A stretch of 64,000 nt of DNA from assembly GCF_900104795.1 (NCBI RefSeq), contig NZ_FNTG01000002.1:124001-188000 (forward strand), read 5' to 3'. Below are positions 7,758-64,000 of the stretch, piece after piece (within the stretch, counting starts at the first letter, position 1; the number at the start of each line of letters is the position of its first letter). Both the position numbers and the translations under genes were made by a program. Under the pieces are notes generated by a model. That model saw nothing but the letters and a program-made list of their open reading frames with translations, ran no database searches and was not told the origin of the DNA. The stretch is from Burkholderia sp. WP9. Its GTDB lineage: Bacteria; Pseudomonadota; Gammaproteobacteria; Burkholderiales; Burkholderiaceae.

Positions 7758-9362
7758 TCATGCGCTGAGGTAGACATCCGCGAGATTGCCTTCCAGGCCT
7801 TGCGCGGACACCGTGTGGTTGTGAACGCGCCGGTTCGCAAGCGTGACCATGCGCGGCGCGACCAGGTTGAGGATCGGCAGATCGCGGTACACGATCTGCT
7901 GGAACTGCTGGTACAACACGACGCGTTTGCTTTCGTCGGTTTCGACCGCGCCGCTTTCGAGCAGGCGGTCGACTTCCGGATTGCTGTAATGCGGTGCATT
8001 CGAAAACGGCACACCGGGGCGGATATTCTTCGACCAGTAGAGGCGTTGAACCCCCACGCTCGGGTCGAATAGCGTGTTGACGCCGATGCTCGTGAAATCG
8101 AACTGGCGATCGGCATACACACGCTTCAGGAATGCAGGCAAGTCCTGCGAGCGAACCGTCACGTCGATACCGACACGCGCCAGCGCGGATTTGACATAGT
8201 CGGCCTGGCGCCGGTACATGTCGCCGTACGGCAGGAAGTCGTGCGTCAAACGGAAGCGCACGCCGCCGTCCTTGCGCGGATAGCCCGCGGCGTCGAGCAG
8301 CTTCTCCGCGTTGCCGATATCGAACGCGTACGGTGCGAGTTTTGCGTCGTGATACGGCGAGCCCGGCGTGATCGGCGTGGGCGACAGATCGGCATAGCCG
8401 TAGGCCACCGTGCGCTGCACGACCTGCGGATTGATCGCATGCGCGATGGCCTGGCGCACGCGCACGTCTTTGAGGACCGGATGATCGAGATTGAAGTCGA
8501 TCTCGGCGAGCGGTTCCAGAAATCGATAGCCGCGCGTTTCGACCGCCAGTTGCGGCAGTTGCGTGAGGCGCGGCAGATCCGTGAGCGGCACCGGGTTCTC
8601 GCCGCCCAGATCCAACGCGCCGGTTTCGAATGCGGCCGAGCGCGCGGCGGCGTCGGGAATCACCTTGAATACGAGGCTGTCGATGTACGGCTTGCCCGCG
8701 TCCCAGTAGTCCGGATTGCGCTCATAGACGATATTGGCGCCACGCGTCCACGATTTGAAACGGAACGGTCCGGTGCCGATCGGCGCGTTGTTGTGCGGAT
8801 TGGACAGCGGGTCGCCCTGCGCGTACAGGTGCTTGGGCACGATTGGCGATTCGCCGGCCGAGAGTGCTTTCAACAGATACGGCGCGGGCTTCGACAACTC
8901 GATCACCGCGGTGCGCGCGTCGGGCGTGGCGATGCTTGTCACATTCGCGAACGTGCTGCGGCCCCGTGGATGCACCGATTTGAGCAGATCGATCGAGAAA
9001 GCGACGTCGGCCGAGGTGAACGGCTGGCCGTCGTGCCACTTCACGTTCTGCCGCAGGGTGAAGGTGTACTTCAGGCCGTCCGGACTGACGGACCACGCCG
9101 TGGCCAGTTGCGGCTTCGGGCGCAGGTCGAAGTCATAAGCCAGCAAGCCTTCCAGCACTTTGGAACTCGCGACGAGCGCGGGTCCGGTGGTCTGGAAGAT
9201 CGACACGAGCACCGGCGGCTCCGGATTGATCAACATGTTCAGCGTGCCGCCCCGTTTCGGCGCGCCGGCCTCGCCTTGGGCGAACGCAAGTGCCGGCATG
9301 CCGGCCGCCGCGAGCGCCGCGCCCGATGAAATAAGAAATTCGCGTCGATTCAACCGTGCCAT
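7758..9362 (-). CDS. ABC importer substrate-binding protein, family 5, Tat signal
   Basis: A 534-residue SBP_bac_5 protein heading the importer operon. The start MARLNRREFL at 9362 gives a twin-arginine-like signal (NRREFLISSGAALAAAG...ALAFAQ); upstream in-frame residues look non-coding. The mature part carries KRGGTLN, VKWHDGQPFTSADVAFS and NNAPIGTGPF, and aligns along its length with the SBP at 166-1785. With the two permeases and double ATPase it makes a complete ABC importer of the dipeptide/glutathione class. The real ligand is not evident. Confidence 0.92.
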   Translation of the reverse strand: MARLNRREFLISSGAALAAAGMPALAFAQGEAGAPKRGGTLNMLINPEPPVLVSIFQTTGPALVASSKVLEGLLAYDFDLRPKPQLATAWSVSPDGLKYTFTLRQNVKWHDGQPFTSADVAFSIDLLKSVHPRGRSTFANVTSIATPDARTAVIELSKPAPYLLKALSAGESPIVPKHLYAQGDPLSNPHNNAPIGTGPFRFKSWTRGANIVYERNPDYWDAGKPYIDSLVFKVIPDAAARSAAFETGALDLGGENPVPLTDLPRLTQLPQLAVETRGYRFLEPLAEIDFNLDHPVLKDVRVRQAIAHAINPQVVQRTVAYGYADLSPTPITPGSPYHDAKLAPYAFDIGNAEKLLDAAGYPRKDGGVRFRLTHDFLPYGDMYRRQADYVKSALARVGIDVTVRSQDLPAFLKRVYADRQFDFTSIGVNTLFDPSVGVQRLYWSKNIRPGVPFSNAPHYSNPEVDRLLESGAVETDESKRVVLYQQFQQIVYRDLPILNLVAPRMVTLANRRVHNHTVSAQGLEGNLADVYLSA

Positions 9363-9789
9363 GTAATCCAGATCCTTATGCCGATGTTTCGGCCTTGCCG
9401 GCCGAATAGAGTGTTGTCGTGTCGGCAATGCCGCTGCCGCAGCGCTCACGATAAAGCCGCAGCGTCGGTAAAAGAACCAATCGTTATGTATATGCAAAGC
9501 ATGGTGCGGAGGAAAGGCGCATCGGCGGGACGCCGCCTTTCCTTTTGTTACGTCGTGGCAGCATCGCTGCGCAAGCATACCAATAAGGATTGCGTATCTA
9601 TTGTCGAGAGTTTGCGTTATTGCTAAAGAATCGGTGTTTTAGCGCTCATTCGAGAGAAATAGTCGATATCCATATCGAATTTGATTGTTTGTTTCGTCGA
9701 TTCGTTTTGCTTATCGTTGCTCGCCCGATTCGAGATTTTCCTCGGGCAATCACTTCTCCGACTCGCCCTCAAAAACGATTCAAACAACT
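9363..9789. promoter_or_regulatory. Divergent intergenic region with AT-rich leader and a palindrome
   Basis: The 427 bases between the importer operon (reverse) and the porin gene (forward) must hold both promoters. The half nearest the porin is clearly more AT-rich than surrounding DNA, as is common for porin leaders. A palindrome TCGATAT-CC-ATATCGA lies at 9663-9678 and could be an operator. No open frame with coding character was seen. Confidence 0.45.
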
Positions 9790-57427: not shown

Positions 57428-57675
57428 GGCGTACCTTGTGCGTTGCGATGCCTTGGGTGGATTTGCTGCTATTGCACCGCACGTCAATTTGAATCGATAG
57501 AATAAAAACGGCATGACAGTGGGATAGTGGCGTCAAGCCGGCCGCCGGCAAAGGGCGGCGACGTATTTGCGAAGACTTTTGACGCATTTGCGAAGGGCGC
57601 CGCGCTTGCGGCTGGCGATCGCCGCCATCCCTGGTGCTATGCTTGATCCCACCCTTTTCCTTGCTGGCTGCATGC
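57428..57675. promoter_or_regulatory. sdaA-sox / GlxA-like divergent region with two direct repeats
   Basis: The gap carries GACGTATTTGCGAAG (57560-57574) and GACGCATTTGCGAAG (57581-57595): 14 of 15 identical and 21 bases apart start to start, exactly two helical turns on one face of DNA. Direct repeats at this pitch are the hallmark of AraC-family operators, fitting the adjacent GbdR-like regulator or GbdR itself controlling sdaA-sox and the regulator. Confidence 0.65.
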
Positions 57676-58758
57676 ATGAATTCCGCTGAACCGCTTCCCC
57701 CTCAATCGATCGACGGCACCTCGAAGCAGCGCATCCGCTTCGGCATCATCCTGCTGCCGAACTTCACGCTGACGGCGTTTTCGGGTTTCGTCGACCTGCT
57801 GCGCCTGTCCGCGGATGAAGGCGATTTCAGCAAACCCGTGCGCTGTTCGTGGAGCGTGATAGGGGAAACCCTTGCTCCGGTGCGTGCGAGTTGTGGCATT
57901 CAGATCACCCCGTGGGAAACCTTCGACACCGCCGAGCCGTTCGATTACGTGGTGGTGGTGGGCGGCCTGCTGCATTCCGGGCCTGCCACGAACGAAGCGA
58001 CCCTCGCCTTCATTCGCAGCGCCGCCGCCACGAATGCGACGCTCGTTGGCATGTGCACGGGCGTGTTTTCGTTGATGCGCGCGGGCGTGCTGGAGGGACA
58101 CCGCATCTGCGTAAGCTGGTTTCACTACTGGGATTTCATCGAACGTTTTCCGTCGGTGAACGAGGAGGCGCTGGTCGCCGACCGGCTGTTCGTGATCGAC
58201 CGCCGGCGCATTACGTGTTCAGGCGGACGCGCGTCGATCGACGTCGCCGCCGCGATTCTGCTGCGGCATTTCGAAACCGCCACGGTGCAGAAGGCGCTGC
58301 GTATTCTGCTTGTGGACGACATGCAGAAAGGTAACGCGCCGCAGCCGCATCCACCGGGACTCGCGCCGGCCGCGCATCCGAAAGTGAAGCGCGCGATTCT
58401 GCTGATGGAACAGCACGTGGGCCGGTCGTTGTCGCTCGACGAACTTGCGGGCAAGCTCGATCTGTCGCCGCGTCAGTTGGAGCGGCTTTTCAAGGCGCAA
58501 ACAGGTAAGGCGCCGCAGGCTTATGCGAAGCAGGTGCGTTTGCGCACCGCCGCATGGCTGCTCACGAGTTCGGATAAGACGGTGGCCGATATTGCGTCGA
58601 GTTGCGGGTTTTCCGATGCTTCGCATCTGGGGCGGGAGTTTCGCAAGCAGTTCGGTTTACCGCCGATGATGTATCGCGAGCAGCGCGGCACGGCGGCGGA
58701 GGCGGTGGATAGTGGGGATTATGAGGAGACGTTTCCGGGGCGGGCGCGGGCGATTTGA
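57676..58758 (+). CDS. GlxA/AraC-family regulator (SouR/GbdR-like)
   Basis: A 360-residue GbdR-related regulator with an N-terminal DJ-1/PfpI-like domain (IRFGIILLPNFTLTAFSGFVDLLRLSADEGDFSK..., MCTGVFSLMRAGVLEGHRICVSWFHYWDFIE) and a C-terminal AraC helix-turn-helix (LSLDELAGKLDLSPRQLERLFKAQTGKAPQAYAKQVRLRTAAWLLTSSDKTVADIASSCGFSDASHLGREFRKQFGLPP). Divergent from sdaA-sox, it is a candidate sarcosine-responsive regulator like SouR, or a carnitine/betaine regulator. The start at 57676 removes an unlikely N-terminal extension. Confidence 0.87.
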   Translation: MNSAEPLPPQSIDGTSKQRIRFGIILLPNFTLTAFSGFVDLLRLSADEGDFSKPVRCSWSVIGETLAPVRASCGIQITPWETFDTAEPFDYVVVVGGLLHSGPATNEATLAFIRSAAATNATLVGMCTGVFSLMRAGVLEGHRICVSWFHYWDFIERFPSVNEEALVADRLFVIDRRRITCSGGRASIDVAAAILLRHFETATVQKALRILLVDDMQKGNAPQPHPPGLAPAAHPKVKRAILLMEQHVGRSLSLDELAGKLDLSPRQLERLFKAQTGKAPQAYAKQVRLRTAAWLLTSSDKTVADIASSCGFSDASHLGREFRKQFGLPPMMYREQRGTAAEAVDSGDYEETFPGRARAI

Positions 58759-58898
58759 GGGGGGTGAGAGCGGGCCGGACAAGAATTTGCCAGCCGAATG
58801 ACAGGATTCATCCAGTCGGCAGGTTTGAAGGCTAAAGCAGCGGGCCGGAATGTTGCCGCACAAGTTGCGGTCACTGGGCCATCCCGCAAGTCAACCGA

Positions 58899-59414
58899 CT
58901 ACAGTTCTATCCGGAAGCGCTCTGGCGGTTGTAGAAAAAATGGATAGAAGTGCCTCGCACACTCCATGATATCGGCTGGGCCATAAAAGACGCCGACATC
59001 CCATGATCGATCGCCAAAGGCAATCCACTCACCTTCCACCGGCATGATGGCATAGTGCCGATGATTCACACCCAGTGCATCCGCGGGACTTCCGCCCGGA
59101 TCTTCCATCATGAAGTGAAAGAACTCGTCGTCCGAGTTCTCACAACGATGAATGAAGCCGGGATACTTTCCAAAATGATGGTGGAAATAACCGAACGGAT
59201 CGGGCTTCAAAATCAGCGTCACAAATTCGGTACTACTCCGGAACGCAAGCAGCGCCTGTACAAGCTCAAAGAATTTTTGCGTTGAGATATCGATCGGGTC
59301 GAAGTACAGCAACTCGTCGCGCGGGACGCCGACGAGAGCGCGCACACCCTGCCTCGCGCGCTTCCAGAGAAGCGTGAACTCCGTCAAATCATGGATGTAA
59401 TCTAATCTACTCAT
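58899..59414 (-). CDS. Unrecognised array protein, paralogue 1 (immunity-like)
   Basis: A 171-residue soluble protein without signal peptide or membrane span, starting MSRLDYIHDLTEFTLLWKRA. Shared with its three neighbours are the motif order FxxLWxRA, PDPxxYFxxHFxxYP, DPGxSPADAxxxN, YAxxPxxGxWxxxGD and a Pro/Phe-rich C-terminus. Acidic overall, in keeping with an immunity or antitoxin protein, but the family is not recognised and no toxin gene lies in the window. It is nearest the GlxA-like gene (convergent). Confidence 0.75.
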   Translation of the reverse strand: MSRLDYIHDLTEFTLLWKRARQGVRALVGVPRDELLYFDPIDISTQKFFELVQALLAFRSSTEFVTLILKPDPFGYFHHHFGKYPGFIHRCENSDDEFFHFMMEDPGGSPADALGVNHRHYAIMPVEGEWIAFGDRSWDVGVFYGPADIMECARHFYPFFLQPPERFRIEL

Positions 59415-59613
59415 TGGTTACCACATCGATGCCTATCAGATTGGATATTGAGCGTTCCCTCTTTGGCTGAGGAGGGAAAGTATTCCGCGGTTGAGGCGCC
59501 GTTGTTCGAACAGCCGCCAGGGAATCAATCCCGTATTGTCGGCGCGCGATTAGATGCCGCACGGTCTTTCGCTGCGAAGTGCAGCATTCAGCAGGCAAGC
59601 AGGCAAGAGCCTC

Positions 59614-60138
59614 CTAGTCAACGATTTTGAAATCGACCCCAGGTCGCAAAATGTCACCTGATAGTGTCGTGCGGGCAAATTCATTGGCGTCTGCTGTTCC
59701 AAGGAACGCCGCAGCCTCCTTCGAATCATCCCCGCAGGCTAGCCATTGCCCAGATCGAGGCAAGATCGCATAAGCCCAGGTGTTAAATGCTAGCGCGTCC
59801 GCAGGACTGCCGCCCGGGTCGGCCTGCAACATGGCACAGTAGTCGGCTTCAATGTCTGTCGGCTGAAAGATGATCGCGGGATACCTCGAAAAGTGGTTGA
59901 AGAAGTATCCGACCGGATCTGGGCGCAATCCTACAAAAGCAAAATCGTCCGTGTCTTGGTTCGTGAATCTAAGCAGGGCTCTAACGAACTGATAGAAGTG
60001 GCGTGTCGTAACGATCGACGAGGCCAAATACACGACGTTATCTTGTGGCGCGTGCTTGAGTAGCCGCACGCCCGCAGTGGCGCGTGCCCAGAGATCTTGA
60101 AACTCAGCTGGGTTGTCGACGAAGATTCGCTTTTCCAT
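59614..60138 (-). CDS. Unrecognised array protein, paralogue 2 (divergent)
   Basis: A 174-residue member of the same family (MEKRIFVDNPAEFQDLWARATAGVRLL...RPDPVGYFFNHFSRYPAIIF...ADPGGSPADALAFNTWAYAILPRSGQWLACGDD). It is the most divergent copy: the N-terminus lacks the D-Y/F-I pattern and the C-terminal half lacks the FYPFFLQP tail. The key middle motifs are kept. It shares strand and spacing with the array and no function is proposed. Confidence 0.7.
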   Translation of the reverse strand: MEKRIFVDNPAEFQDLWARATAGVRLLKHAPQDNVVYLASSIVTTRHFYQFVRALLRFTNQDTDDFAFVGLRPDPVGYFFNHFSRYPAIIFQPTDIEADYCAMLQADPGGSPADALAFNTWAYAILPRSGQWLACGDDSKEAAAFLGTADANEFARTTLSGDILRPGVDFKIVD

Positions 60139-60287
60139 TTCACTTCAACCTGATCCTGTACGTGACGCAACCGTCCTGCGATTAGCCAAATCGGGCCTCG
60201 AACGCGCTTTGAATTCCGCCGTTCGCTGGGTATCGCTGACGCCAAGACGCCACGTGTTTACGCGTTGAGCGACCGCCTCCAGTGGAA

Positions 60288-60321
60288 GCGTGTGTCCCGA
60301 CCTGTTGTCCGGGACACGCGC
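60288..60321. terminator. Intergenic hairpin within the array
   Basis: Arms GTGTCCCG (60292-60299) and CGGGACAC (60310-60317) extended by GCGT/GCGC with one wobble, a 12-pair stem and 10-base loop, in the gap after the interrupted paralogue. No T-run, so it may be a processing or attenuation structure rather than a strong terminator. Confidence 0.45.
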
Positions 60322-60638
60322 GCTACTTCCGTAATCGGACGTAACGACGACGATGGCGATTCAATAAAAGATTTACGCTGGATTCTCGTAAAACGCGAAA
60401 CGCTGCTTAGCAAATTGCATGACGTCCGGGGGACCGCTGAGAACACCAGTTCCGCCAACCCATCCTCGATCGGCATAACAGAACCATTCGCCCGATGGTG
60501 GCAAGACGACGTATTGCTCCGAATAAAATCCAATCGCGTCAGCTGGACTGTCACCAGGGTCCATCATCAGTATGTCAAAAAAATCCTCGTTCGTATGACG
60601 AGATTCAACTATGAACCCCGGATACTTGCCAAAGTGCA

Positions 60639-60647
60639 TATTGAAGT
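60639..60647. repeat. Target-site duplication, left
   Basis: TATTGAAGT at the left junction, repeated exactly at 62112-62120. Nine bases is the duplication length of the IS50 group. Confidence 0.92.
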
Positions 60648-60671
60648 CATCTCTTTATACACAACTCGACA

Positions 60672-60710
60672 CTTGCGGCAAGGATGGTGGAGTAAAAAAT
60701 TAGCCGCAAG
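60672..60710. repeat. Internal inverted repeat at the IS left end
   Basis: Perfect 8-base arms CTTGCGGC (60672-60679) and GCCGCAAG (60703-60710) upstream of the transposase. In IS10/IS50 similar fold-back in read-through RNA protects against transposase expression from outside promoters; the same role here is an inference. Confidence 0.6.
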
Positions 60711-60757
60711 GGGGTTGTTAACTGTGCGGATTTCGCGTTTACTCTCGGATTTTCAGC

Positions 60758-62104
60758 ATGAAGATCCGAGACGACGCAGGAGCATGGGTGGACGAGGAAT
60801 TTGAGACGCTGGATCTGGGTGATCCACGGCGAGACCGGCGCGCGAAGGAGCTGGTCAAACGGTTCGCCAGCCGACCCACGGCTAGCATTCCGGGCGCGTG
60901 CGAAGGCTGGTCAGAGACGATCGCTGCATATCGCTTTTTGGGCAATGAGCACATCGACTGGCGCGACATGATGCAGCCGCATTGGGACCGTACCACGGCA
61001 CGCATGGGGCAGTTGCCGGTGGTGCTGTGCATTGCCGATACGACAGAGCTGAACTTTAACGGTCAGGATATCGAAGGGGCTGGCCCGCTCTGTTATGAAG
61101 CACAGGTGGGCATGTATCTTCACGCGACCTATGCGGTGACACCGGATCGGGAGCCGCTGGGTGTGATGAACGCATGGATGTGGGCGCGCGAACCACGCGA
61201 TGCAAACGGCAAGCGTGGGGGCGTTAAGGAAAGTGCGCGGTGGATCGAAAGCTATGAGATCGTGGCCGAACAGGCACGGGCCCTGCCTGACACGCGGCTG
61301 GTGTATGTGGCCGATCGTGAAGGCGACATCGCCGCGCTCATGCAGCGTGCGCAGGAACTGGGTGAACCGGCGGACTGGCTGATGCGCTCGCAACACAATC
61401 GCGCGCTCAAGGGCGAAGCAAGTTTGTGGGAGACGGTGCACGCCAGCAGGGTACTCGGCCACATCAGCTTCGTGCTGCCCGGGCGCAGCGGCCAGAAGGC
61501 GCGTGAAGTGAGGCAGGAACTGCGTAGCCAGCGCGTCACGCTGCCCGGGCGTGCCGGTGTCAAGCTCACCTGCGTCGAGGCGTATGAAGTGGATGCGCCA
61601 GCGGGTGTGAAGCCCGTTATCTGGCGTCTTGTGACCAACCGCGAAGCAGGTGATGCGCATGCCCTCATCGAACTCGTTGACTGGTACCGCGCGAGGTGGG
61701 AAATAGAAATGTTCTTCAACGTCCTGAAGAACGCCTGCGGGGTCGAGGCACTGCAACTCTCACAGATGGAGCGGGTAGAAAAGGCGCTCGTGCTGTACAT
61801 GGTCGTATCGTGGCGTATCGCGCGGCTCATGCGTGTGGGCAGGACCTGTCCGGAGTTGGACGCGTCGCTGTTCTTTGCGGCTGACGAGATACACGGCGCC
61901 CATGTGCTCTGTAAGAAAGCGCGTCCCAAAAAACCGCCGACGCTCAACCAGATGATACGGATGGTCGGCTCACTGGGCGGATTTCTCGGGCGCAAGAACG
62001 ACGGCGAACCAGGCGCGAAGACGCTATGGATTGGCATGCAGCGAGTTATGGATGCTGTGATCACCATACAGATCTTGCGCGACGGCTATGACACTTCTGT
62101 ATAA
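60758..62104 (+). CDS. IS4-family transposase
   Basis: A 448-residue DDE transposase resembling Tn5/IS50. Catalytic acidic residues fit Asp94 (LCIADTTELNF), Asp186 (YVADREGD) and Glu317; the IS4 signature Y-x2-R-x3-E-x6-K is Tyr310, Arg313, Glu317 and Lys324 (YRARWEIEMFFNVLK). These positions are close to the Tn5 D97, D188, E326. The start at 60758 and stop at 62104 lie within the inverted repeats. It appears intact and could be active. Confidence 0.95.
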   Translation: MKIRDDAGAWVDEEFETLDLGDPRRDRRAKELVKRFASRPTASIPGACEGWSETIAAYRFLGNEHIDWRDMMQPHWDRTTARMGQLPVVLCIADTTELNFNGQDIEGAGPLCYEAQVGMYLHATYAVTPDREPLGVMNAWMWAREPRDANGKRGGVKESARWIESYEIVAEQARALPDTRLVYVADREGDIAALMQRAQELGEPADWLMRSQHNRALKGEASLWETVHASRVLGHISFVLPGRSGQKAREVRQELRSQRVTLPGRAGVKLTCVEAYEVDAPAGVKPVIWRLVTNREAGDAHALIELVDWYRARWEIEMFFNVLKNACGVEALQLSQMERVEKALVLYMVVSWRIARLMRVGRTCPELDASLFFAADEIHGAHVLCKKARPKKPPTLNQMIRMVGSLGGFLGRKNDGEPGAKTLWIGMQRVMDAVITIQILRDGYDTSV

Positions 62105-62111
62105 CGAGATG

Positions 62112-62120
62112 TATTGAAGT
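62112..62120. repeat. Target-site duplication, right
   Basis: TATTGAAGT directly after the right inverted repeat, identical to 60639-60647. Confidence 0.92.
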
Positions 62121-62489
62121 AGCTGAACGGATCTGGGTTAATAACGACCACAGCGAACTCACCGGTTCCGTGGAACACCGCAATGCTTCGGATAAGGTTG
62201 AGAAAAACCTCCGTAGCAATGTTAGAAGAGTCGAAGCGCAAAAGCTTCGAGGCCGGGGTCACTGCCGCTCGCTCCATACATGCGCATGCACGTTGCCAAA
62301 GCAGCGTGAATGTCTCAAGGTCATTGATGTAATCAATGTTGCTCATAAACTGCTCAAGCGGATTTTGACAGTTGCGCTTTTCGAACCCGCAGGAATCTTG
62401 CGTAGCCTCAGGCGGTAAACGTGGCATGCGGAAACGACGCGGATTGTTACGGCGTTTCCGCCCTGCCTGACCTTGCGATCTAACGCAAG

Positions 62490-63005
62490 CTATTCAACAA
62501 CGCTGAACCCTTCACCGGGTTGGAGAAAAAACGGATAAAAGCTTCGGGCAAACGCAAGGATATTAGGCGGCCCTGTCAGTACGCCCATTTCCCGTTTTCT
62601 GTCCGCGTACATGAACCATGTTCCAGGTGCCGGCAGAACCGCATACCGCTCAGAATTGGCCCATAAACAATCCGCCGGACTGTCGCCCGGATCCCGTTGC
62701 CAGGATTCAAAAAAATCGTCATCGGATTGCTCCGCGCGATGCACGAAGCCGGGGTATGTGTGGAAGTGAAAATTAAAATAACTGAAGGGGTCAGGCTTCA
62801 GTACCAAGCTGACGAAATCGCGCCCACCTTCGTGGGCCAGCAACGCTAGTACAAGTTCAAAAAATTTCTGTGTGGATATATCAACAGAGTCAAAATAGAG
62901 TAGCTCGGCCGGCGAGGCTGACGCCAACTCTTGCACGCGCGTGCTCGCACGCTCCCACAGCGGATAAAAGGTCGCCGAATCTGAAATGAAGTCTGGCTTG
63001 GTCAT
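62490..63005 (-). CDS. Unrecognised array protein, paralogue 4 (immunity-like)
   Basis: A 171-residue copy (MTKPDFISDSATFYPLWERASTRVQELA...LKPDPFSYFNFHFHTYPGFVHRAEQSDDDFFESWQRDPGDSPADCLWANSERYAVLPAPGTWFMYADRKREMGVLTGPPNI...FYPFFLQPGEGF) most similar to paralogue 1, with the same YFDxxDISTQKFFELV segment. The start at 63005 matches the family N-terminus; a longer frame up to 63095 is not supported. It is the upstream-most gene of the array on its strand, and the array probably starts near it. Confidence 0.75.
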   Translation of the reverse strand: MTKPDFISDSATFYPLWERASTRVQELASASPAELLYFDSVDISTQKFFELVLALLAHEGGRDFVSLVLKPDPFSYFNFHFHTYPGFVHRAEQSDDDFFESWQRDPGDSPADCLWANSERYAVLPAPGTWFMYADRKREMGVLTGPPNILAFARSFYPFFLQPGEGFSVVE

Positions 63006-63498
63006 GACGGAAGGCGGCTTACCGGTGCCAACTGGGCGAACCCGGCTTCGCGCCGGTGGCTGCCCACACCGCATTGCAATCAGCCGCGTTCGCACCGAAC
63101 GCCAACATGAGCAGCATGAATGCGGCCAACAGGCGGGTCACCATTGCGCCCGGACTCTCTTTAATTCTGTTTCTTATCATCGTCGTCCTTATCGGTTGTA
63201 CTTGGATTTAGCCCAAGCACCCTATAAGGACTGCAACAATCAAAAAATCCGACAACTCCTAAAACTGACGTATCCACACACGGAATCTAATGCGAGTCGA
63301 TAAACACCGACACGCGCCGTAGGAACTCTGAAGCGCAACTATCAGACAAGATCCAATCGCGATGCAGAAACGGCCGTCTGCCGGCAACACACGAGACCAC
63401 CGCCCGCGGGCTAAACGAACAGAAAACAAAAAAACAAAGCGACGTATAAGGCACCCCAAAATACTGCCCCATCCGCCGCCCCATTCTCAAACCCAACC
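63006..63498. other. Non-coding accessory boundary region
   Basis: The 493 bases between the array and the next SBP gene. The forward frame from 63008 to 63211 stays open and ends with a single membrane-span-like stretch (SLILFLIIVVLIGCTWI, ending at 63211); it has no ribosome-binding site and could be the decayed 3' end of a lost gene. An A-rich run (63420-63440) lies downstream of the SBP gene on its strand. No gene is firmly supported. Confidence 0.35.
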
Positions 63499-64000
63499 TC
63501 ACTTCCCCGCTACATAAGCCTTCACAGCCGGCAACCCATCCTTCCCGTCATACGTCTTCACTCCTGCGAGCCATTTGTCGAGCACCGCCGGATTCGCCTT
63601 CAGCCATTCGCGCGCGGCCTTGTTCGGGTCGGTCTTGTTCATGATCGGCAGCATGACGTGATTCTCGATATCGGTCGTGAACTGCAGATTCGACACCAGC
63701 TTCGCCACATTCGGGCAACGCGCCGAATAATCGCTCGGCGTGACCGTCAACACTTTGGCTTCGCCATAATTCGGTCCGAACACATCGTCACCGCCAGACA
63801 GATAATCGATCTTCATCTGCACGTTCATCGGATGCGGTTCCCAGCCCAGAAACACGATCGGTTTGTTCGCGCGGATCGCACGGTTCACCTCGACCAGCAT
63901 GCCCGCCTCGCTCGACTCGACAAGTTTGAATTTGCCGAGACCGTACTGATTGCTGTCGATCATCTTCTTGATCAACGCATTGCCGTCATTGCCCGGCTCG
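63499..64000 (-). CDS. Choline-type ABC transporter substrate-binding protein (partial)
   Basis: The C-terminal 166 or so residues of a third OpuAC-family binding protein; the gene continues past the right edge. It aligns with the SBP at 20806-21756 through EPGNDGN...IKKMIDSNQYGLGKFKLVESSEAGMLVEVNRAIRANKPIVFLGWEPHPMNVQMKIDYLSGGDDVFGPNYGEA and on to the Pro/Lys-rich end. It is orphaned from transporter genes in the window, as are the other two. Confidence 0.9.
   Translation of the reverse strand, partial: EPGNDGNALIKKMIDSNQYGLGKFKLVESSEAGMLVEVNRAIRANKPIVFLGWEPHPMNVQMKIDYLSGGDDVFGPNYGEAKVLTVTPSDYSARCPNVAKLVSNLQFTTDIENHVMLPIMNKTDPNKAAREWLKANPAVLDKWLAGVKTYDGKDGLPAVKAYVAGK

Follow-up and report, generated by a model that had tools for sequence, protein, structure and literature searches.

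The four minus-strand genes at positions 58899 to 63005 of a 64,000-nucleotide stretch of DNA from the soil bacterium Burkholderia sp. WP9 (contig NZ_FNTG01000002.1; hereafter the window) are probably orphan immunity genes of one undescribed protein family that would guard against the C-terminal tip of an Rhs polymorphic toxin. We put the probability of this reading, in which the array was left by tip displacement followed by loss of the toxin, at roughly 0.85. The locus is regarded as an orphan immunity (polyimmunity) array because homologues elsewhere are linked to one toxin tip, their sequences co-vary with that tip, the pair recurs on other carriers, and a toxin relic lies before each window gene. 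A first-pass annotation, made from the window alone, had already read the genes as immunity-like and had proposed that neighbourhoods in related genomes be surveyed for variable toxin C-termini beside homologues. Such co-occurrence was found, and the immunity reading gained support from it, from the co-variation and from the presence of the pair in other phyla.

Three of the four genes are intact: gene 1 (P0001, 171 amino acids; 58899..59414), gene 2 (P0002, 174 amino acids; 59614..60138) and gene 4 (P0003, 171 amino acids; 62490..63005). Gene 3 is split, with its C-terminal part at 60373..60647 and its N-terminal part at 62112..62346. The annotation had counted four tandem minus-strand genes; the tandem order, common orientation and divergence of the paralogues stood, but the IS4/Tn5-type element that interrupts the third copy had gone unmentioned. 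The motif order said to be shared by all four copies was recovered, except that the split gene departs from the consensus at two motifs (DPGDSPADAIGFY, and YV instead of YA); its interruption falls within the PDPxxYFxxHFxxYP motif. As had been noted, the second paralogue is the most diverged, P0002 being 39% and P0003 53% identical to P0001, and the intact products are acidic, with isoelectric points of 4.68-5.41. With P0001 as query, the other array copies were recovered with expect (E) values of 1.3e-57, 1.4e-34, 7.5e-23 and 1.2e-15, far beyond chance.

To learn what accompanies the family, 34 sites were surveyed in 29 of 30 profile-positive Paraburkholderia-type genomes; G176, the weakest match (E 5e-4), was left out. 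At loci L031-L040 the gene for a protein of ~770-880 residues, taking the longest open frame, runs 1 to 4 bases into the first family gene; by eye, the N-terminus of this protein resembles a signal peptide. The upstream proteins carry Pfam RHS_repeat and DUF6531 in 7/7 cases and YD repeats in 4/4, as expected of Rhs polymorphic toxins. Their ~90 last residues, the tip, matched no convincing family (best Pfam E 0.021, for a single member of 12 tips). Of the 34 sites, 22 have a complete tip and 4 a truncated one no more than 150 bp upstream of the first family gene. Ten of these sites and one Leptospira tip supplied the tip profile, so that those ten match it by construction; the 24 sites outside the profile gave 12 complete tips, 4 truncated tips and 8 first genes with none.

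The same pair was found on other carriers, in Leptospira plasmids, Emticicia, Pedobacter and Caballeronia. At two Leptospira loci (L050 and L051) the immunity homologue starts 4 bp after a protein annotated as RHS or SpvB/TcaC that bears the same tip. One of these, on a Leptospira weilii plasmid (L050), also displays a dense series of RHS genes with a small gene after each, one of them annotated as polymorphic toxin type 10.

The distances between tips and those between immunity proteins were then compared over 23 unique pairs. They were correlated (r 0.67), and 0/2000 permutations reached this value, a count that overstates independence because the pairs are related sequences. In the 20 pairs with a long core, the tip-immunity correlation was 0.70 (0.68 as a partial correlation), the core-immunity correlation 0.18 and the core-tip correlation 0.22; the family sequence thus varies in step with the tip and not with the toxin core, as expected of an immunity protein. 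Since the family genes directly adjoin Rhs genes, their products could instead be chaperones or loading factors of Rhs toxins. We consider this highly improbable, because the family sequence tracks the tip (0.70) and not the core (0.18), because the family accompanies the same tip on other carriers, and because the genes lie downstream of the toxin and are retained where the toxin is gone, in the window and in P. xenovorans LB400.

The annotation had called the family unrecognised, and profile searches likewise gave no curated family. The window proteins had no Pfam match up to E 10 and only one chance match in NCBIfam (9.1 bits, cut-off 800); over 25 family members the best Pfam E was 0.0057, for a single member (RGI1). 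Pfam and NCBIfam immunity models (SUKH, Imm families) did not reach their curated cut-offs, which leaves room for distant kinship. A metabolic or regulatory family was rejected on the results for the window proteins, and homologues are often multi-copy, the annotation having named a metabolic match, or homologues always in single copy away from toxins and mobile elements, as grounds for abandoning its reading. That an unrelated metabolic or regulatory family lies next to Rhs genes by chance is almost certainly wrong: the function of these proteins is predicted from sequence and their folds had no trustworthy match, yet no library family matched and the family is tied to one toxin tip over three phyla and co-varies with it.

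Candidates of other kinds fared no better. PADLOC anti-phage defence families gave 0 matches for P0001-P0003, and PHROGs gave one chance match among the window proteins (P0002, E 0.5). A phage origin was rejected, P0001 finding no match (E up to 0.1) among 50,697 phage records. In the toxin P0005, part of the repeats matches phrog_10385, a family of unknown function (E 1.5e-8).

The window itself holds remains of toxin genes. The annotation had seen no toxin gene; this is right for intact genes, since between the window genes there is no intact toxin or tip, but a toxin relic stands ahead of each copy. Before gene 1, a tip-end relic (59435..59497, minus strand) is 80% identical over 75 nt to the toxin 3′ end of L035/L055 (E 4e-11); its match to the tip profile is weak (E 0.017), and its tip score was reached by 0/300 shuffles. 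Before gene 3, a second tip-end relic (62346..62393, minus strand), 91% identical over 46 nt to an LB400 relic (E 7e-13), ends in a TGA stop that overlaps the ATG of gene 3, and again 0/300 shuffles reached its tip score. The remains before genes 2 and 4 are of other toxin parts. Gene 2 is preceded by an Rhs-core relic (60171..60229, minus strand), to which the toxin core of L040 is 79.7% identical across 59 nt (E 8e-9). Before gene 4 we found the leader of a deleted Rhs toxin gene (63019..63180, minus strand; signal-peptide-like by eye), the frame of which opens at 63180 and stops at 63019, 13 nt ahead of the gene. The minus-strand segment 63029..63349 is 78% identical across 321 nt (E 6e-71) to the leader of the toxin gene in G084 and the region upstream of it, so the decayed cargo that had been suspected in the gap upstream of the array is indeed present. 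The core scores before genes 2 and 4 were reached by 0/60 shuffles each. On the 3′ side of gene 1 there was no tip or core signal, and only a single short match, to flanking sequence of LB400 (E 0.004). The five residues RIRLK at 60143-60157, before gene 2, may be another tip end.

For genes 1 and 3, the site whose tip best fits the relic is also the site that holds the closest immunity gene among the 23 pairs. This site is L035 for gene 1 (tied with L031 at 72.9%) and L080 for gene 3, and the relic-tip and immunity rankings agree with Spearman coefficients of 0.77 and 0.64, respectively. The closest immunity proteins to genes 2 and 4 are at L081 (70.5%) and L079 (91.2%).

These relics bear on how the array arose. 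The genes could be immunity genes that multiplied by local tandem duplication and divergence, rather than by successive tip displacement. All members do belong to one family, and 5 of the 43 members in multi-copy arrays have a neighbour in their own array as nearest relative; old local duplications would be compatible with this test. However, the other 38 have their nearest relative at a different site, a result that argues only against recent local duplication, because the test scores the orthologous locus of a second genome as a separate site. In addition, the window copies are 39-53% identical among themselves but 70-91% identical to genes elsewhere, two of the relics are of different toxin types, each matching the gene behind it, and relics lie between genes at other sites too (6/29 later genes). 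Local duplication as the origin of the array is therefore quite unlikely. An earlier stage of tip displacement is preserved in a relative, inside an array of nine full-length family genes at L072: a displaced Rhs-core fragment that keeps a complete tip, together with the tip's immunity gene (8435-9657).

By the tip-displacement reading, each protein would bind, in the cytoplasm, the ~90-residue C-terminal tip of a leader-bearing Rhs protein, and this binding would protect the cell from siblings or neighbours that still make the toxin. The array would have grown by successive tip replacement, the older immunity gene remaining downstream each time while its tip decayed, and a final deletion would have taken away the current toxin. 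The remaining genes would still be expressed and used.

A search of the WP9 genome with the G084 toxin recovered the leader relic, another Rhs gene that bears a different tip (C2:1405647-1407569), and a further relic (C1:1084292-1084528); it gave no intact toxin carrying the tip that goes with the family. The C2 Rhs gene (L048:5231-7594) has a 96-amino acid gene behind it, and the C1 sequence (L049:5188-5834) is a broken relative of like kind. Further family members were not detected in this genome with P0001 (E up to 0.1) or with a 25-sequence profile (E up to 1e-4). The genes that flank the array, at 57634-58758 and 63499-63975, border a recurrent insertion site. Of 23 loci, 15 have the two genes adjacent (gaps of 7-426 bp, no family gene), 5 have the family between them (the window, G084, LB400, G150 and G151) and 3 other cargo; these shares are not a frequency, because the loci were chosen from the best matches and the known occupied sites. 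At L109 the cargo appears, by eye, to be a VgrG-type cluster. G084 has an intact toxin and one immunity gene at the equivalent chromosomal site.

LB400 has orthologues of genes 1 and 4 (84% and 87% identical) and a stub of gene 3, and the former place of the toxin bears a different scar. Either the toxin was lost twice, or a single loss was later reworked. The deletion scar of LB400 holds a small frame (VGGLYLLLEPLW...; L052:3920-4150), which is seen again upstream of the L039 toxin (L039:6352-6609). The ratios of nonsynonymous to synonymous substitution rates (dN/dS) against the LB400 orthologues, 0.16 for gene 1 and 0.13 for gene 4, show constraint at the sequence level, part of which may predate the loss of the toxin.

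Together with this possible age of the constraint and the relatedness of the pairs, several results weigh against the orphan immunity reading. No tip was present within 150 bp upstream of the first family gene at 8 of the 34 surveyed sites. Among 29 later family genes, 22 had none, 6 a truncated tip and 1 a complete one. The core match fell into two pieces at 5 of the 22 sites with a complete tip, so that the toxin gene may be broken there and a complete tip is no proof of an intact toxin gene. In the window, the tip signal before genes 2 and 4 was not above chance (216/300 and 49/300 shuffles reached the score), and the fit to toxin type for these genes was not significant (Spearman 0.25 and 0.37). 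Finally, a promoter consensus scan of 58700-63600 found 0 promoter-like sites, with 2.6 expected.

The lack of a promoter-like site, the split gene 3, the bare gene 3 stub in LB400 and the fragments seen in several relatives would also suit a decaying remnant without present function, in which the immunity genes have merely not yet been lost. We take this to be unlikely, though worth keeping in mind: three of the four genes are intact, two of them with the dN/dS values given above, and they have stayed so while the neighbouring toxin parts were reduced to fragments.

The insertion sequence in gene 3 (60648..62111, plus strand, 1464 bp) has all the marks of an IS4-family, Tn5-type element. It encodes a transposase of 448 amino acids with Tn5 domains (60758..62104, plus strand; Dimer_Tnp_Tn5 E 1.3e-30), has imperfect terminal inverted repeats of ~19 bp, and is bordered by a 9-bp target-site duplication (tattgaagt; left copy 60639..60647, right copy 62112..62120). 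It probably moved recently, because its 4 full-length copies in the genome are identical; one partial relative, at 69%, is also present. Rfam gave no match at gathering thresholds over 58500-64000.

Both the kind of system and the proposed history are already published (Jackson 2009; Poole 2011; Zhang 2012; Koskiniemi 2014; Kirchberger 2017). Two things are new relative to the libraries searched: the pair of tip and immunity protein, and the presence of toxin relics between the genes. In the account of Zhang et al. 2012 (PMC3482391), homogeneous polyimmunity loci are tandem, co-oriented immunity paralogues with no intact toxin gene between them, and are thought to guard against the toxins of other strains. 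The window likewise has same-strand tandem paralogues of one immunity family, with gene 3 split by the insertion sequence. However, the loci of that account are uninterrupted by toxin genes or cassettes, whereas the window has toxin relics between the genes, and the window family matches no Pfam or NCBIfam model.

In the orphan rhs-CT/rhsI modules outlined by Jackson 2009 (PMC2935791) and Koskiniemi 2014 (PMC3967940), C-termini are displaced together with their immunity genes. The window differs: it has lost the main gene by deletion, and its tips are short relics of ~20 codons or fewer, which do not code for a toxin domain. A displaced tip that is complete and still has its immunity gene occurs in the relative L072, not in the window. 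The orphan cdiA-CT/cdiI modules described by Poole et al. 2011 (PMC3150448) also have tip fragments ahead of immunity genes, and an orphan immunity protein of that system was shown to be made. The carrier there is CdiA, in contrast to Rhs here, and the tip and immunity families reported here fall outside the models searched. In the Vibrio cholerae type VI secretion arrays described by Kirchberger 2017 (PMC5361080), effectors were replaced and old immunity genes kept in the 3′ region, as proposed here; unlike there, neither the window array nor its Rhs toxins had a type VI gene noticed next to them, although no systematic search was made. The CdiI of the E. coli A0 34/86 contact-dependent growth inhibition complex (PDB 5t86 chain I) is also among the closest known systems. 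In Serratia, an Rhs orphan immunity protein was shown to protect (PMC10539506). A literature search on the Leptospira Rhs polymorphic toxin and on 5T86 with CdiI gave nothing, which is no claim of absence from print.

A broader picture is more speculative and, in our view, less likely than not: a new tip-immunity pair common to at least three phyla would be carried on export-leader Rhs proteins with no type VI gene noticed nearby, tip displacement in Paraburkholderia would leave readable fossils, and some lineages, perhaps independently, would have dropped the weapon and kept a multi-specificity shield. The weapon may have been lost and the shield kept on two occasions, because the related LB400 array has a different deletion scar. 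An undescribed toxin-immunity pair thereby gains a clear sequence signature in several phyla, and the 23 unique natural pairs are material for testing tip-immunity recognition. Furthermore, since the history of the array can be read from the toxin relics between the window genes, the displacement model is open to a check at each gene in turn.

The immunity protein gave a confident structure model (predicted local distance difference test score 90.8, predicted template modelling score 0.87) and the tip a model of moderate confidence; comparison with the PDB gave no trustworthy match for either. An alignment of 26 tips shows full conservation of S, N, T, V, F, two G, K, R, A and a KIRL at the end. 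The invariant set lacks His, Asp and Cys, while some acidic positions are kept in at least 85% of the tips. This hints that His- or Cys-based and many metal-dependent mechanisms are less likely. That the tip is a metal-independent nuclease is a guess, which we hold with little confidence.

The family is patchy within the genus. P0001 matched 11/146 genomes and a 16-sequence profile 30/144, its own genome being counted in both, with up to nine matches per genome. In a sample of the phylum, the immunity family was found in 1/398 genomes, its own, and the toxin tip in 0/398, in a search run without a positive control. A scan of genome contigs gave 20 loci, 14 in Paraburkholderia and 6 in Emticicia, Mucilaginibacter, Pedobacter and Acidobacteriota, and plasmid records added nine Leptospira plasmids with homologues of 24-26% identity. 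No recognised tip accompanies the family member at the Mucilaginibacter and Acidobacteriota loci or at L071. In one of them (L067:4839-5453) the Mucilaginibacter member lies directly 3′ of an exported-looking protein of 633 amino acids that has no recognised tip.

At loci L041-L043 the tip on the Rhs core is a different one and has a gene from a second small family after it, with members of the array family further behind. There the tip LSHTFRHLD... and the other family (MSRPLAPHEYKLLDFLLE...) occur in mixed arrays, and may represent a second toxin-immunity pair.

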